Part shown: positions 25,304 to 30,380 of the stretch, in pieces
Layout: the number at the start of each line of letters is the position of its first letter
How positions within the stretch are numbered: position 1 is the first letter of the stretch
Origin: Acidobacteriaceae bacterium
GTDB taxonomy: Bacteria; Acidobacteriota; Terriglobia; Terriglobales; Acidobacteriaceae
Assembly (NCBI GenBank): GCA_025356095.1
Contig: JANXUR010000021.1
Span: 1-61,306, forward strand
DNA: 61,306 nt
Direction of reading: 5' to 3'
The notes under the pieces: generated by a model
What the model was told of the DNA's origin: nothing
Databases searched by the model: none
What the model saw: only the letters and a program-made list of their open reading frames with translations
Translations under genes and position numbers: made by a program

Positions 25304-27061
25304 TTACTGCGCGGGCCCAATCACGTGCAGCCCGCACTCGGTTTTTTCCAGATGCGGCCAACGCCCGGCTCGTTCGTCTTCTCCCGGCAGAATTGCACGA
25401 GTGCAATTCGTGCAGCCAATGCTTGGATAATTCCGGTCGTGCAGCACGTTATAAGGCACGTGGTTGGCGCGGATGTACTCCCACACCCGCTCCTTGGTCC
25501 AGTCGGCCAGCGGATTGATCTTCACCAACCCGTACTTGGCGTCCCATGAAATTTTCTTGGCCGTCGCGCGACTGGCGGTCTGGTCGCGGCGCACGTTGGT
25601 GACCCACGCATCGAGTTCGCCCAGCTTGCGGCGTAGCGGCTCTACCTTGCGCAGCTCACAGCAACGGTCAGCATCCCGCATCCACAGCGCTGCACCGTAG
25701 GCATCTTCTTGGGCCTGCGGACTCTGCTCGGGCATGGCGCGCTCCACCTTCACGCCGTAGCGCTGCTCAATGCGGTCCATCAGTTCATAGGTTTCTGGGA
25801 ACAAGAATTCCGTGTCTATGGTAAAGAGGCGGAAGAATCGCGGCCGCAGCCGCGCCGCCAGATCAATTGTCACCATACCTTCTGCGCCAAATGCTGTGGA
25901 GATCGCCACCCGCTCGCCAAAGCGGGCGAATGCCCACTCCAGCACCTGCTCTGCGTCCCACCTTTCAGCGTCGGCTGGAGGAATAAACGTGAAGTCGCCT
26001 AGCTCCCACCCCGGACCGACCGAAGCCCCCGCGCCACCGATGGGCGTGGCCTCGCTCCAAACCGCATCGCCGACGGCAGCGCCCGCCGCATCCCCCGTTT
26101 GCTCATTCCAGAAGTTCACCCGGCTGGGGTCAAAGGTCTGGTAGCCACCGAGCACGGTCGAAAAGAAAATATCCGAGGGCAGCGCCAACGCCTGTCCTTG
26201 CGGTGACTTCGTGATGTCTGCCATCGGTTCTGCTGCTTCCGCTGCCCCATCCCACCAGCCTTGCGCCTCGGCCACCTCAGGCAGATACGATTCCACATTG
26301 CCAAGTGTCACGACTTCACCAATCACCAGCAGCGTGGGTGCAGGCAGATCCGGCGCGCGGTGCAGACCAGCCAGCGTAGTGGCATACACTCGCTGCTGCG
26401 GCGTGGTCGCTTGCGAAATCATCGCACACGGCGTGTGCAGCGGATTACCCGCCGCAATCAGCCGTTGCGCAATGCCAGCGCGGTCGCGCCCCGGCATGTA
26501 GACCACCACCGTAGTGTCTGCCCCGGCAAAGCGAGTCCAATCCGCACCCTCACGGCCTTGCGCGGTTTGCGCCGTCACAAACACCACTGCCGACGACGCT
26601 CGCCGATGCGTCATGGGGATCTGCGCTGCCGCCGCCGCGCCAAAAGCCGACGTCACGCCCGGCACAATTTCAAAGGCCACGCCCGCCTCTCGCAACGCTT
26701 CCATCTCTTCCGCCAACCGCCCAAACACCAGGGGATCGCCACTTTTCAGCCGCACCACCTGCTTGCCAGCCTTCGCGTGTTCCACCAGCAGAAAGTTGAT
26801 CTCCTCCTGACGCACCGCGATGTCACGGCCTTTCTCGTGGTCGGCGCTGCGCTTGCCCACGTAGCGCACTTCGGCCGTGGCCGGCACCAGCGCCAGCACT
26901 TCGGCGGAAACCAGATCATCGTGCAGCACCACATCAGCCGCTTGCAGCGCCCGCTGCGCCTTGATGGTCAACAGCTCAGGATCGCCCGGCCCGGCGCCCA
27001 CCAGCCAGACTTTGCCCGGTTTGCTTCCGGCCCCATGCAGCTTTCGTTGTGCTTCGCTCAA
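25304..27061 (-). CDS. cysH: Fusion: uroporphyrinogen-III methyltransferase (CobA) + APS/PAPS reductase (CysH)
   Basis: Two enzymes in one 585-residue chain. Residues about 17-260 are SUMT/CobA, which methylates uroporphyrinogen III twice to precorrin-2: 'KVWLVGAGPGDPELLTIKAQRAL', 'VRLKSGDPLVFGRLAEEMEAL', 'VPGVTSAFGAAAAAQIPMTHR'. A poorly conserved linker of about 100 residues follows. Residues about 365-580 are CysH: 'AISTAFGAEGM', 'FTIDTEFLFPETY', Cys-Cys at 467-468, CTNC at 550-553 and the catalytic KTECGLH near 576. The two Cys pairs indicate a [4Fe-4S] APS-reductase-type enzyme. It is the last gene of the sulfite-reductase operon, overlapping the one before by 4 bp. The fusion ties siroheme synthesis to sulfate reduction. 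Confidence 0.93.
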   Translation of the reverse strand: MSEAQRKLHGAGSKPGKVWLVGAGPGDPELLTIKAQRALQAADVVLHDDLVSAEVLALVPATAEVRYVGKRSADHEKGRDIAVRQEEINFLLVEHAKAGKQVVRLKSGDPLVFGRLAEEMEALREAGVAFEIVPGVTSAFGAAAAAQIPMTHRRASSAVVFVTAQTAQGREGADWTRFAGADTTVVVYMPGRDRAGIAQRLIAAGNPLHTPCAMISQATTPQQRVYATTLAGLHRAPDLPAPTLLVIGEVVTLGNVESYLPEVAEAQGWWDGAAEAAEPMADITKSPQGQALALPSDIFFSTVLGGYQTFDPSRVNFWNEQTGDAAGAAVGDAVWSEATPIGGAGASVGPGWELGDFTFIPPADAERWDAEQVLEWAFARFGERVAISTAFGAEGMVTIDLAARLRPRFFRLFTIDTEFLFPETYELMDRIEQRYGVKVERAMPEQSPQAQEDAYGAALWMRDADRCCELRKVEPLRRKLGELDAWVTNVRRDQTASRATAKKISWDAKYGLVKINPLADWTKERVWEYIRANHVPYNVLHDRNYPSIGCTNCTRAILPGEDERAGRWPHLEKTECGLHVIGPAQ

Positions 27062-27738
27062 TCCGCCACCCCCACCGCATTCGCCGTGCTAGCCACGCCC
27101 GCCACGGCCGCCACGGCCGCCAACGCCGCATCCACTGCCTCACGCCGGGCCAAGCCAAACAGCAATTCTCTTTTTGCTTCCGCAGAGAGCGCACTGGCGC
27201 GAATGCGCTGACGATTTTCGCCTAACTCCGCCACCAGATCGCCATACTCCGGGCCGTACTGCTGCTCCAAGTCTTTGCGCAACTTCTGCGCCAGAGCCGG
27301 ACTGTGCCCCGCCGTCGAGATCGCGATTTGCAGTTCGCCGCGCCGCACCAGCGCACCGTAGTAGAAGTCGCAGAGCGGCGGCACGTCCACAACGTTGCAC
27401 CAAATGCCACGCCGCTGCGATTCGCCAAACACCTGCTCATTCACCGCAGGCTCAGAGGTAGCTGCAATCACCAACTGCGCGCCCTCAAGGTCACTCAGCG
27501 CAAACTCACGCGGCGCAAACTGAACGCGGCCCGCGTTCGCCCACGCTTGCACCGTGTCAGTCGCCCACGTGGCCACCACGCGAATCCTCGCGCCTGTGCC
27601 CAGCAGGCTGGCGATTTTCTGTTCGCCAATCAATCCCGCGCCCACCACCAGTACCTCGCGGCCAGAAAGCTTCAAGAAGACCGGAAACAAGCTCTCTACT
27701 TGATGGAGCGGTGCTTGAGCCGAAACGTCAGTGCTCAT
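27058..27738 (-). CDS. Precorrin-2 dehydrogenase (siroheme synthase, Met8/CysG-N type)
   Basis: This oxidises precorrin-2 to sirohydrochlorin with NAD and, in Met8-type enzymes, may also insert iron. The N terminus 'FPVFLKLSGREVLVVGAGLIGEQKIASLLGTGARIRVVA' is the NAD-binding Rossmann start of the family. 'LEGAQLVIAATSEPAVNEQVF' and 'IWCNVVDVPPLCDFYYGALVRRGELQIAISTAGHSPALAQKLRKDLE' follow. 226 residues is the single-domain form. It lies between sulfite reductase and the CobA-CysH fusion with 4-bp overlaps at both ends, so the operon holds both dedicated siroheme steps up to sirohydrochlorin. Confidence 0.93.
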   Translation of the reverse strand: MSTDVSAQAPLHQVESLFPVFLKLSGREVLVVGAGLIGEQKIASLLGTGARIRVVATWATDTVQAWANAGRVQFAPREFALSDLEGAQLVIAATSEPAVNEQVFGESQRRGIWCNVVDVPPLCDFYYGALVRRGELQIAISTAGHSPALAQKLRKDLEQQYGPEYGDLVAELGENRQRIRASALSAEAKRELLFGLARREAVDAALAAVAAVAGVASTANAVGVAD

Positions 27739-29510
27739 GCGCCCACCCCGCCCGGCACTGTGCCAGAAGGTAAGTCACGGGCCGCGGCTTCCGCCGTCGT
27801 TCCCGCCAAAAGCCCCCGCAACTCTTCGTCTTGATGCCGTGCCAAAAAGCCCCGCAGCGGCTCGCTGCCAGCGCGCTGCGTTTGATACGCATTCAGCAGG
27901 CGTTCAATCGCGTCCGGAACCTCCGTCGCCAAACAGCGATAGCCCACAGGCCGCGCCGTAGCCTCATGGAATCCCAAAGCACCGCCTACGCAGAAGTAGT
28001 ACGCATCCTTCAGACCTTCCGGCGTCTTAATTTTCTTACCCTCGATGCCAATATCTGCAATCCAGTGCTGGCCACAGCTATTCGGACAACCGGTCACATG
28101 CAGCTTCAAATGCTGGTCAAAGCCCGGCAGCCGGTCTTCCAGTTCGCCGGTCAGCCAGCGGGCAAAGCCTTTGGTCTCAGTGAGCGCGAGTTTGCAGAAT
28201 TCGCTGCCAGTGCACGCTACCGTGCCCCTCGCAAACGCCGAGCCACCTACCGTCAGCCCAATCTTTTCCAGCTCGGCGGCCAATTCCGCCGCGGTTTCGC
28301 TGGGCACGTTGACGATCAAAACATTCTGCATCAGCGTCGTGCGGATATCGCCCGTGCCGAAGCGTTCGGCCAACTCGGCTACCGCAAAAAGTTGCTCGGC
28401 GCTCATTCGACCGCGCAGCACGGTAGCACCTACATACGAAAGTCCCGGCTGCCGCTGCGGATAAATCCCCACATGGTCGCGGTACACACTCTCGGGTCGC
28501 GCTTCCTCCACCGCCGGTTCCAGCGCAAAGCCCAGCCGTCGCTCCAATTCAGCCAAAAAGCTCTCTGCCGTCCAGCCATGCTTCAGAAACAAGTACTTGA
28601 GCCGCGCGCGGTCGCGATGTTCGCGTAAACCATCTACTTCGCGAAACAGCTCAGCCACCGCTTTGGTTACCGCCACCGCCTGCTCCGGATGCACAAAGCA
28701 GTTCAGCTTCGCCGCCAGATGCGGCTCGGTGGAAAGCCCACCCCCCACACGCAACGAAAATCCCACCACGCCATCGCGGCGGCGCACTGCCGTAAGGCCC
28801 ACATCGTTGATCTCAGGATGCGCGCACCACTCGGAGCAGCCACTGATAGAAATTTTGAACTTGCGCGGAAGGTTATAGAACTCAGCATTCACCGAGAGGG
28901 TGCGGGCCACCTCGCGTGCTATCGGCGACGCATCGTAGATCTCATTCGCGTCGAGTCCTGCCACCGGACATCCCGTAACGTTACGCACCACATCGCCACA
29001 GGCACCTTTGGGGTCAAGGCCCGCCGCCCACAGTGTTTCTAGAACTTCGGGTAAAGACTCGATCGTCACCCAGTGCAGTTGGAAGTTCTGCCGCACGGTA
29101 ATGTCTGCAATGCCCCGCCCATGCTTCGCAGAAACGGTGGCAATCGTGCGCAGTTGATGCGCGGTCAGAATGCCGTTGGGTGCCTGAATTCGCAGCATCA
29201 GGAAGGGCAGCGCTTTGCCTTCGCCGCCTGTACCACCGGTCACGCCCGCGCCGTCGCCCTGGGTGTAGATGCCCCACCACTTAAAGTAGATATTCAGCCA
29301 CGGTGGCGGAATCGCGGCGAAGCCTTCGCGAGCAAACCGCCGCAACTCCTCGAGTGCGTCCCACGGGTTCAACTCGCGCTTTAGGCGTTCCACGCGCTGC
29401 GCTTTGGTCTCTGGGGGCGGAGCGGCCACCGAGGCTGCGCTTGGCATTTCGCTCGCGTTTCCCACTCCTGCCGTGCCGGACGTGCTAGACGTGCTTGCTG
29501 TACTCGACAT
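27735..29510 (-). CDS. sir: Ferredoxin-type sulfite (or nitrite) reductase
   Basis: A siroheme-[4Fe-4S] enzyme carrying out the six-electron reduction of sulfite to sulfide. Two tandem half-domains are visible. The cluster-siroheme Cys residues are in 'TVACTGSEFCKLALTE' and 'LHVTGCPNSCGQHWIADIG'. 'VRQNFQLHWVTIESLPEVLETL' and 'RNVTGCPVAGLDANEIYD' are substrate-face motifs. The ATG at 29510 has GAGGAG ten bases upstream; a TTG at 29528 lies too close to it. 591 residues is normal. Sequence alone cannot exclude nitrite reductase, but the CysH partner and the cysteine-containing leader point to sulfite. Confidence 0.92.
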   Translation of the reverse strand: MSSTASTSSTSGTAGVGNASEMPSAASVAAPPPETKAQRVERLKRELNPWDALEELRRFAREGFAAIPPPWLNIYFKWWGIYTQGDGAGVTGGTGGEGKALPFLMLRIQAPNGILTAHQLRTIATVSAKHGRGIADITVRQNFQLHWVTIESLPEVLETLWAAGLDPKGACGDVVRNVTGCPVAGLDANEIYDASPIAREVARTLSVNAEFYNLPRKFKISISGCSEWCAHPEINDVGLTAVRRRDGVVGFSLRVGGGLSTEPHLAAKLNCFVHPEQAVAVTKAVAELFREVDGLREHRDRARLKYLFLKHGWTAESFLAELERRLGFALEPAVEEARPESVYRDHVGIYPQRQPGLSYVGATVLRGRMSAEQLFAVAELAERFGTGDIRTTLMQNVLIVNVPSETAAELAAELEKIGLTVGGSAFARGTVACTGSEFCKLALTETKGFARWLTGELEDRLPGFDQHLKLHVTGCPNSCGQHWIADIGIEGKKIKTPEGLKDAYYFCVGGALGFHEATARPVGYRCLATEVPDAIERLLNAYQTQRAGSEPLRGFLARHQDEELRGLLAGTTAEAAARDLPSGTVPGGVGA

Positions 29511-29530: not shown

Positions 29531-29586
29531 CTAACTAGACTGATCTAACTAGACTGACCTAACAGAACTGGCCTAACGGGACTGAC
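29531..29586 (-). repeat. 14-bp tandem repeat in the sulfite-reductase leader
   Basis: Four consecutive 14-base units occur, on the minus strand of the form GTTAGRTCAGTCTA (best two units) with two diverged ones, followed upstream by a partial unit. They fill the space between the attenuator hairpin and the ribosome-binding site of sir, so they would lie in the mRNA leader. Confidence 0.85.
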
Positions 29587-29618
29587 CTTACTGGAGCGTG
29601 CCCACTGCATAAAGCAAA

Positions 29619-29648
29619 ACCCACCGCCAGTTGCGTCTGGCGGTGGGT
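29619..29648 (-). terminator. Leader terminator hairpin upstream of sir (attenuator)
   Basis: A perfect 12-bp stem ACCCACCGCCAG/CTGGCGGTGGGT with a six-base loop, read on the minus strand and followed at once by TTTGCTTT. This is an intrinsic-terminator shape, but it lies before the operon it would stop, 28 bases after the stop of a short cysteine-containing ORF. That is the arrangement of a transcription attenuator. Confidence 0.75.
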
Positions 29649-29660
29649 GGATGAGTGCTC

Positions 29661-29690
29661 GTTTGCTGTAGAAATTCTAGGTCAGCAAAC
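29661..29690 (-). promoter_or_regulatory. Hairpin overlapping the end of the leader ORF
   Basis: GTTTGCTG (codons 16-18 of the leader ORF) pairs perfectly with CAGCAAAC just after its stop. Inside the loop TAGAA/TTCTA can pair as well. In an attenuator this would be the first stem, disrupted by a ribosome that reaches the stop codon. Confidence 0.55.
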
Positions 29691-29736
29691 CTCCATCGCC
29701 CAAACGCACAGACGCACAACAGGCGTGGGTACACAT
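29677..29736 (-). CDS. Cysteine-containing leader peptide of the sulfur operon
   Basis: The 19-codon ORF reads MCTHACCASVRLGDGGLLT, with Cys at positions 2, 6 and 7. GAGG lies eight bases before this ATG; another ATG two codons upstream is too close to it. A ribosome slowed at Cys6/Cys7 would leave GGCGATGG (29693-29700) free, which can pair 7 of 8 positions with CCACCGCC in the 5' arm of the terminator stem, an antiterminator. With ample cysteine the ribosome would run to the stop and the terminator would form. The operon downstream makes sulfide for cysteine, so the logic fits. Coding is seen; the mechanism is inferred. Confidence 0.6.
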   Translation of the reverse strand: MCTHACCASVRLGDGGLLT

Positions 29737-29907
29737 GGCCATGGCCTCGGCAACAGAAATAAAGTACATAGGCGATAGATTAGCCATCAGAAGAAAAAGC
29801 TGCATAATATTTCGCAGAATCCGCAATTGAAATTTTGCATGGAGTGAATTCAAGTTTTGCGCGGTCAGAAGATTCACGAAAGGCGTTCGTGCGTCAGCGT
29901 AATGCCT

Positions 29908-29942
29908 ACTATAGTAATATAATTAGCTTACATTCATTTTTG
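29908..29942 (+). repeat. Dispersed intergenic element, partial copy B
   Basis: It contains ACTATAGTAAT, identical to copy A at 6105-6115. After the same four-base gap comes a 20-base block starting TTAGCTTAC that matches copy C at 14 of 20 positions. The upstream AAATTAAA box is not preserved. It lies in the divergent region between the sulfur-operon leader and the HIT gene, with the perfect palindrome TACTATAGTA at its start. Confidence 0.55.
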
Positions 29943-30038
29943 ACACACGTTCCAAATCTCCGCAACCCACGGCTCACCCCCACCCTCCCCCTAGGTTTGA
30001 TATCCTGCACCCGCCGGGATACCCCCGCCGAGGTCATC

Positions 30039-30380
30039 ATGCTTAACTGCCTGTTCTGCCGCATTATCGCCGGGGAGATTCCCGCCAACAAGGTGTACGA
30101 AGACGCCGACACCTTTGCTTTTGAGGACCTGCACCCACAGGCTCCGACTCACGTCCTGGTCGTGCCCAAAAAGCACATTGCTGACTTGGCTGAAGCCGCC
30201 GCGACCGATGCGAATGTGGTGGGATTGTGTCAGTTGGCCGCAGCCGAAATCGCCCGCCAGCGCGGGTTGAGCAAAGGCTATCGCACCGTCGTAAACGTCG
30301 GCCCGGATGCGGGCCAGACGGTTTTTCACCTGCACGTACATCTGCTGGGAGGCAGAAGCCTAAGCTGGCCGCCGGGCTAG
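30039..30380 (+). CDS. HIT family protein (Hint-like purine nucleoside phosphoramidase)
   Basis: 113 residues starting 'MLNCLFCRIIAGEIPANKVYEDADTFAFEDLHPQAPTHVLVVPKKHI', the standard Hint/HinT opening with a Cys pair (CLFC) that can bind zinc. The active site 'GQTVFHLHVHLLGGR' gives the HxHxHxx triad. It hydrolyses AMP-lysine-type phosphoramidates in the family; the physiological role is usually unclear. The ATG at 30039 matches the family start, and the open frame upstream is non-coding. Confidence 0.95.
   Translation: MLNCLFCRIIAGEIPANKVYEDADTFAFEDLHPQAPTHVLVVPKKHIADLAEAAATDANVVGLCQLAAAEIARQRGLSKGYRTVVNVGPDAGQTVFHLHVHLLGGRSLSWPPG

Follow-up and report, generated by a model that had tools for sequence, protein, structure and literature searches.

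A Probable Cysteine-Codon Transcription Attenuator Upstream of the Sulfite Reductase Gene in Acidobacteriaceae

A short ORF containing Cys codons, followed by an intrinsic terminator, precedes the sulfite reductase gene sir in the window (the whole 61,306-nucleotide stretch of Acidobacteriaceae DNA analyzed here), and 119 of the 135 regions examined upstream of sir in the family share this arrangement. The parts of this device, their conservation, and the frame of the start codon in relatives can be read from the sequences, and a folding switch between two RNA structures emerges by computation. We consider it highly likely that the device is a Cys-specific leader-peptide transcription attenuator, and the earlier note on this DNA, which proposed a cysteine-responsive attenuator, was thus largely right, although the start of the leader had probably been misplaced.

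The Leader and Its Operon

The genome that contains the window measures 3.53 Mb, and the best 80 matches of its Sir protein in named genomes are mostly MAGs of Terriglobales/Acidobacteriaceae, many of them labelled Candidatus Sulfotelmatobacter, with single records from Acidipila, Edaphobacter, and Terracidiphilus. On the minus strand, sir (27738-29510), which encodes a NirA/sulfite reductase family protein, is the first gene of the operon presumed to be controlled. It is followed by a gene for a protein with a siroheme synthase N-terminal domain of the precorrin-2 dehydrogenase type (27058-27738) and by a cobA-cysH fusion (uroporphyrinogen-III methyltransferase and PAPS reductase; 25304-27061), so that gene identification bears out the operon previously assigned to the leader. 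These genes act in the reduction of sulfite and, for cysteine, of sulfate. On the other side of the leader lies a divergent ORF (29835-30380, plus strand; likely start 30039), which we take to be HIT-like from a motif.

Read base by base, the minus strand features ATG TGT at 29736 and, from there, an ORF of 19 codons that ends at a TAG (29679-29677), has Cys at codons 2, 6, and 7, and is preceded by a GAGG (29748-29745), all as the earlier note described. These 19 codons (29677-29736) form the 3′ part of a leader ORF of 30 codons (MYFISVAEAMAMCTHACCASVRLGDGGLLT; 29677-29769, minus strand), which was obtained by direct reading and by matching its start with those of relatives. The start at 29769 is probably the one used, rather than 29736, because the start codons of relatives mostly lie 6-8 nt past a -10 box and in the Cys frame. 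Since the GAGG falls inside this longer in-frame ORF, with its start position matching the relatives, it is probably not a ribosome-binding site; initiation at 29736 driven by the GAGG, as proposed before, is probably wrong, and the leader of the window is probably leaderless or nearly so. A candidate -10 box, TAATCT (29777-29782, minus strand), was placed by the family spacing; it stands 7 nt ahead of the 29769 start codon and lacks a good -35, while an alternative promoter-like pair, TTCAAT-16-TATTAT (29804-29831, minus strand), scores 8.6, below the 95% null threshold of 9.0. As the promoter-like site in the window is weak, we can only infer a leaderless start there.

In the numbering of the longer ORF, folding with different ribosome positions points to Cys13 (29733-29731) and the Cys17-Cys18 pair (29721-29716) as the regulatory codons (29716-29733, minus strand). 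Three Cys codons place the window at the low end of the family leaders, and three by themselves carry no significance, as three Cys in 12 codons are also reached in 451 of 2700 shuffled family regions. A second three-Cys ORF is present in the same region, and the window by itself would not be singled out as Cys-enriched. The case therefore rests on the relatives.

Three RNA elements occupy the remainder of the leader, all on the minus strand. The putative antiterminator segment (segment 2; GGGCGATGG, 29693-29701) lies in the ORF tail and is suggested by duplex calculation, alignment, and folding. Nested inside the antiterminator is an inner 8-bp hairpin (GTTTGCTG/CAGCAAAC; 29690-29683 and 29668-29661), which spans the stop codon. 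The terminator hairpin, a perfect 12 bp formed by segments 3 and 4 (29648-29637 and 29630-29619), is supported by direct reading, folding, and compensated pairs in the clade, and runs into a U-rich tract (TTTTGCTTTAT, 29609-29619) whose first T closes the hairpin. Both the hairpin over the end of the ORF (29661-29690) and the perfect 12-bp hairpin (29619-29648) had been noticed before and were recovered here, as was the pairing at seven of eight positions between GGCGATGG (codons 13-15 of the 19-codon ORF) and CCACCGCC (terminator 5′ arm). The 211-nt leader folds with a z of -3.16 (none of 200 shuffles is equally good), and the duplex between the ORF tail and the terminator 5′ arm has a z of -3.57 (none of 100 shuffles). 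The terminator ends about 90 nt ahead of the GAGGAG and start codon of sir, and a 14-base tandem repeat of 4.4 copies (29531-29592, minus strand) lies between terminator and gene.

Conservation Upstream of sir

Searches for Sir gave a match in 46 of 297 genomes of the phylum and in 173 of 250 genomes of the family, from which 135 family sir upstream regions were taken (27 from the phylum search, and 28 plus 80 from the family search). Three loci of other families (L029-L031) were excluded before the counts and have no Cys cluster directly before sir. A joint criterion, which relies on a folding-based terminator finder, detects a Cys-rich short ORF and then a terminator in 119/135 regions, compared to 4/135 on the reverse strand and 0/30 in recA upstream regions used as a control. 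The conservation of Cys codons and terminator in relatives, on which the earlier note had staked its reading in advance, was thus observed. Short ORFs with at least three Cys in 12 codons occur in 124/135 regions (reverse strand 11/135; shuffles as given above), and those with at least four in 102/135 (reverse strand 2/135; shuffles 52/2700). A simpler finder used earlier, which missed or mis-framed hairpins, had returned a terminator-like hairpin in 109/135 regions and in 35/135 on the reverse strand. As a side observation from the recA control, recA was matched in 35/41 family genomes, and genome G000 gave no match at 1e-60 though it is listed as 100% complete.

The position of the leader ahead of sir is conserved in the family, and the leader peptides of different clades diverge widely apart from their Cys content. 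A degenerate pattern representing the Cys segment of the window was confined to its own genome (1/396) in a search for exact matches in relatives, and nucleotide conservation is therefore the wrong test for this element.

The 16 regions missed by the joint criterion comprise 11 without a Cys ORF (at least three in 12 codons) and 5 without a detected terminator; all were read by eye and are still counted as misses. At eight of them (L019, L023, L066, L070, L076, L116, L118, and L123), another apparent coding sequence extends close up to sir, presumably phoU-, cysH-, or exporter-like. By eye, a two-Cys leader and a hairpin were made out at L103, a Cys leader at L027 and L068, and a short three-Cys ORF at L119. 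L075 and L098 are ambiguous, and no leader could be seen by eye at L139 and L140.

Promoter-Like Sites and Start Codons in Relatives

Upstream of the Cys cluster, a TTGAC/TANNNT-like pair scores above the 95% level of base-shuffled sequence at 105 of the 119 loci. Transcription usually begins 6-8 nt after a -10 box, and at 68 of these 105 loci the start codon itself is 6-8 nt past the -10 box, too close for a Shine-Dalgarno site to fit. Where an ATG follows the -10 box within 4-14 nt, the first one is in the Cys frame in 96/96 cases (the other 9 of the 105 loci have no ATG there), and this supports translation of the Cys frame. Cys accounts for 21.9% of the residues in the 96 predicted leader peptides. 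The distance from -10 box to ATG implies that the mRNA of most of the relatives' leaders is leaderless, a prediction that may be set beside an estimated average of 13.3% leaderless genes in three Acidobacteria genomes, as given in an available excerpt of one study (PMC3160421).

Predicted Switch Between Antiterminator and Terminator

From these parts we infer a course of events that runs from the start of transcription through translation and stalling to termination, with a response to cysteine. Transcription would begin at or just before the leader AUG, and a ribosome would load at this leaderless or nearly leaderless end, trailing the polymerase. With ample Cys-tRNA, the ribosome would clear the Cys codons and move to the stop codon, covering segment 2 and the inner hairpin, and with segment 2 covered, segments 3 and 4 would form the terminator. 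With scarce Cys-tRNA, the ribosome would stall at Cys13, Cys17, or Cys18, leaving segment 2 and its nested inner hairpin to pair with the terminator 5′ arm while the 3′ arm has yet to be transcribed. The terminator would then be blocked, and the polymerase would read into sir, the siroheme synthase gene, and cobA-cysH.

Folding of the window's transcription intermediate gives values that agree with the earlier idea that a stall at Cys frees the antiterminator. Sequestration of the terminator 5′ arm is 0.82 with the ribosome up to codon 15 and 0.76 at Cys17 (0.82-0.76 over Cys13-Cys17), 0.53 at Cys18, and 0.51 at codon 19, and then drops to 0.05 at codon 20, stays at or below 0.10 beyond, and is 0.04 at the stop codon. 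In this model, the switch falls right after the Cys-Cys pair. A separate fold with a stalled ribosome gives 0.81 for the window, compared to 0.01 at the stop codon, and none of 40 shuffles is as high. In the full-length RNA at equilibrium, the terminator is favored at 0.96-0.97 even with a ribosome at the Cys codons. Once the 3′ arm is present the terminator thus wins, and read-through would therefore have to be kinetic, which is a feature of classical attenuation.

Across the 119 loci, placing the ribosome on the cluster's first Cys gives a sequestration above the shuffle mean at 104 of them, and the medians are 0.68 when stalled, 0.54 for shuffles, and 0.20 with the ribosome at the stop codon (Wilcoxon p 2e-16 for stalled versus shuffles, uncorrected for relatedness). 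At the level of single loci, just 17/119 have a stalled-state value with a rank of no more than 1 of 30, and just 38/101 have a duplex of tail and arm that no more than 5 of 100 shuffles equal. The separate stalled-ribosome fold, applied to 101 loci, yields a rank of at most 2 of 40 for 5/38 members of the clade that includes the window and for 15/63 others.

This clade of 38 sir loci was aligned (alignment A1). Its ORF tail, with a sequence similar to TCTGGCGCGGGGAGG, nearly copies the 3′ arm of the terminator and should therefore be able to take the terminator 5′ arm; the helix over the stop codon is nested within the antiterminator. Four pairs of the terminator have changed on both sides, a number reached by 0/500 shuffles. 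Paired cells make up 92.9% in the antiterminator helix and 81.1% in the inner helix, and neither helix shows covariation above shuffles within the clade. Of the covarying stems that the earlier note had suggested looking for in relatives, the terminator thus qualifies through its compensated pairs and the antiterminator does not. When tails and arms were swapped across clades, defined as arm clusters, native pairs were no better than swapped ones (median p 0.94), and a repeat of this test again found no advantage for native pairs (0.55, 0.44, and 0.44). The proposed antiterminator is accordingly one supported by folding and conservation, not by covariation.

Alternative Explanations

A Cys leader could also act at the level of translation or through Rho, as reported or suggested for mycobacteria, with the hairpin in a minor role. 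Mycobacterial polycysteine leaderless ORFs, including the Cys leader system of M. smegmatis, are cited as translation attenuators in the portions available of two papers (PMC13236596; PMC9031893), and Rho was proposed earlier in a study whose accessible text describes Cys leader peptides of Actinobacteria “without obvious terminators” (PMC1262725). Half of the leaders before inferred cysD genes discussed below (5/10) have no detected terminator either, as such control would allow. At sir, however, 119/135 loci have an intrinsic terminator behind the Cys ORF, and the one in the window ends about 90 nt short of the gene's GAGGAG and start codon, which makes this explanation unlikely there.

Still less probable is that the ORFs encode functional small metal- or thiol-binding proteins and that the hairpin is an ordinary terminator between a small gene and sir. 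Cys-rich small proteins do exist, and translation of the ORF is suggested by the promoter-like sites and by starts in frame, but the peptides differ widely across clades outside their Cys content, and the position ahead of sir is conserved. In the clade closest to the window, moreover, the tail copies a terminator arm and is conserved as RNA: at L052 the conserved tail is read in another frame, and at L033 (outside A1) the peptide stops before it, so that segment 2 is kept as RNA and not as peptide. Sulfur genes are under riboswitch or T-box control in other phyla, but it is very improbable that a metabolite-binding riboswitch or T-box drives this terminator with the ORF incidental, because what stays constant is the Cys frame with its start, and because Rfam gave no gathering-threshold match in the window leader or 12 relatives (with E allowed to 5, the sole match in the leader has an E of 2.4, far below the threshold of its family).

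Relation to Known Systems

Cys-specific transcription attenuation, the reading we prefer, resembles the trp and his attenuators, in which a short ORF rich in the amino acid of the pathway, alternative antiterminator and terminator pairing, and an intrinsic terminator precede the operon. Here, too, the ORF is rich in codons for the end product (Cys 21.9%, with the leader in 119/135 loci) and presumably translated, alternative pairing is predicted by folding, with the mixed results in relatives given above, and an intrinsic terminator stands between the leader ORF and the structural genes of a biosynthetic pathway. The Acidobacteriota leaders differ in that the regulatory codon is Cys, the leader is predicted to be mostly leaderless, the inner hairpin over the stop codon is nested in the antiterminator, and the phylum is another one.

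The original work on the polycysteine leaderless short ORFs of M. smegmatis is reportedly that of Canestrari in 2020. Conserved Cys-rich leaderless small ORFs of mycobacteria were proposed as first candidates for cysteine-directed attenuation, according to the text available from one report (PMC4633059). The leaders described here share with them the Cys-rich ORF, the leaderless start (predicted in relatives), and the position upstream of sulfur or cysteine genes. Unlike the mycobacterial ORFs, which in the excerpts at hand have no obvious terminator, they feature a terminator after the Cys ORF in 119/135 sir loci, and for this reason we do not file them as members of the mycobacterial type. 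The earlier note's statement that Cys leaders are known in mycobacteria holds in that they are cited there, as translation attenuation, but they are not found only there: the uORFC-8-2 motif of Rhodobacterales, as described in the part of its source available to us, places a Cys-codon uORF and a terminator before cysS, with predicted ribosome-mediated attenuation (PMC8632094). Compared by description, uORFC-8-2 and the Acidobacteriota leaders both combine tandem Cys codons in a short uORF with an intrinsic terminator, whereas sir is the downstream gene here and the phylum differs. A leaderless start, predicted for the Acidobacteriota leaders, is unmentioned for uORFC-8-2 in that excerpt.

For the Acidobacteria, the available text of one survey reports almost no attenuators with an associated function (PMC2965389), and the word cysteine is absent from what is accessible of a leader-gene survey that covers the phylum (PMC4833913). 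Among the matches listed from the open-licence literature, which were available in part, we found neither Cys attenuation in Acidobacteriota nor a description of Cys leaders, intrinsic terminators, and predicted leaderless starts in combination.

Similar Leaders Upstream of Other Genes

A covariance model built from A1 gave matches in 24/199 genomes of the phylum; 12/31 matches are confined to the 3′ part, and the model fails to find many sir leaders from other clades. Beyond sir, ten loci matched by this model and twelve larger stretches were read, and the identities of downstream genes were scanned for one example of each kind. In the window's own genome, the model found no convincing leader besides that of sir, and the peroxiredoxin gene there is without a Cys leader. 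Upstream of this peroxiredoxin gene (L344), direct repeats of CCCGAAGTTTGAC-like units occur within 400 nt.

In the family, 1-Cys peroxiredoxin genes are preceded by a Cys leader and terminator at 22/30 loci (L314-L343, family f1), compared to 4/30 with at least three Cys in 12 codons in the reverse-strand control. These leaders lie within about 335 nt of the gene on its upstream side and often end in PVCG or similar. Of the 30 loci, 14 have the first ATG past a strong promoter in the Cys frame and 3 have it out of frame; the remainder lack such an ATG (4), show a weak promoter (4), or carry no Cys ORF (5).

Within 1.5 kb upstream of PF01507 genes, similar leaders were found at 12/30 loci in the forward direction versus 5/30 in reverse. 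At 10 of the 11 PF01507 loci of the family, which are putatively cysD, a Cys-rich ORF is present, at 5 of them along with a terminator, and the promoter-like sites are only weak in 6/10. The Cys-rich leaders in which no terminator was detected (L263, L271, L272, L275, and L277) perhaps use another output mechanism. In family f18, where cysH precedes sir, a Cys leader is present in 3/3 cysH loci examined; at L259, L264, and L266, the leader before cysH has six or seven Cys codons in a row and is followed by a terminator. Genome G009 (family f10) features a Cys leader and terminator about 1 kb upstream of a cysH that also precedes sir.

A Cys leader and terminator are also found before genes for a rhodanese, a family 2A encapsulin (SrpI), and its cargo cysteine desulfurase (L236 and L237, from G084 and G130); these are 2 of 6 SrpI loci, and the promoter-like sites of both are weak. 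At L238 (G139), a Cys leader and terminator lie before a gene for a 422-aa protein. A short Trp-containing ORF (WYWW) was seen before a DAHP synthase gene (L229:1472-1567, plus strand; G197, family f21), with a terminator from about 1597, and is likely the leader of an aromatic amino acid attenuator.

We judge the chances to be evenly balanced that Cys-codon attenuation, mostly leaderless, extends regulon-wide in Acidobacteriota, from sir, cysD, and cysH to 1-Cys peroxiredoxin and, in a few genomes, to an encapsulated cysteine desulfurase, with charged tRNA-Cys as a joint read-out of sulfur supply and thiol oxidation. At sir, the attenuator reading gives an Acidobacteriota attenuator a specific signal, mechanism, and targets. 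The leaders before peroxiredoxin genes suggest that charged tRNA-Cys may report thiol stress in these bacteria in addition to sulfur supply.
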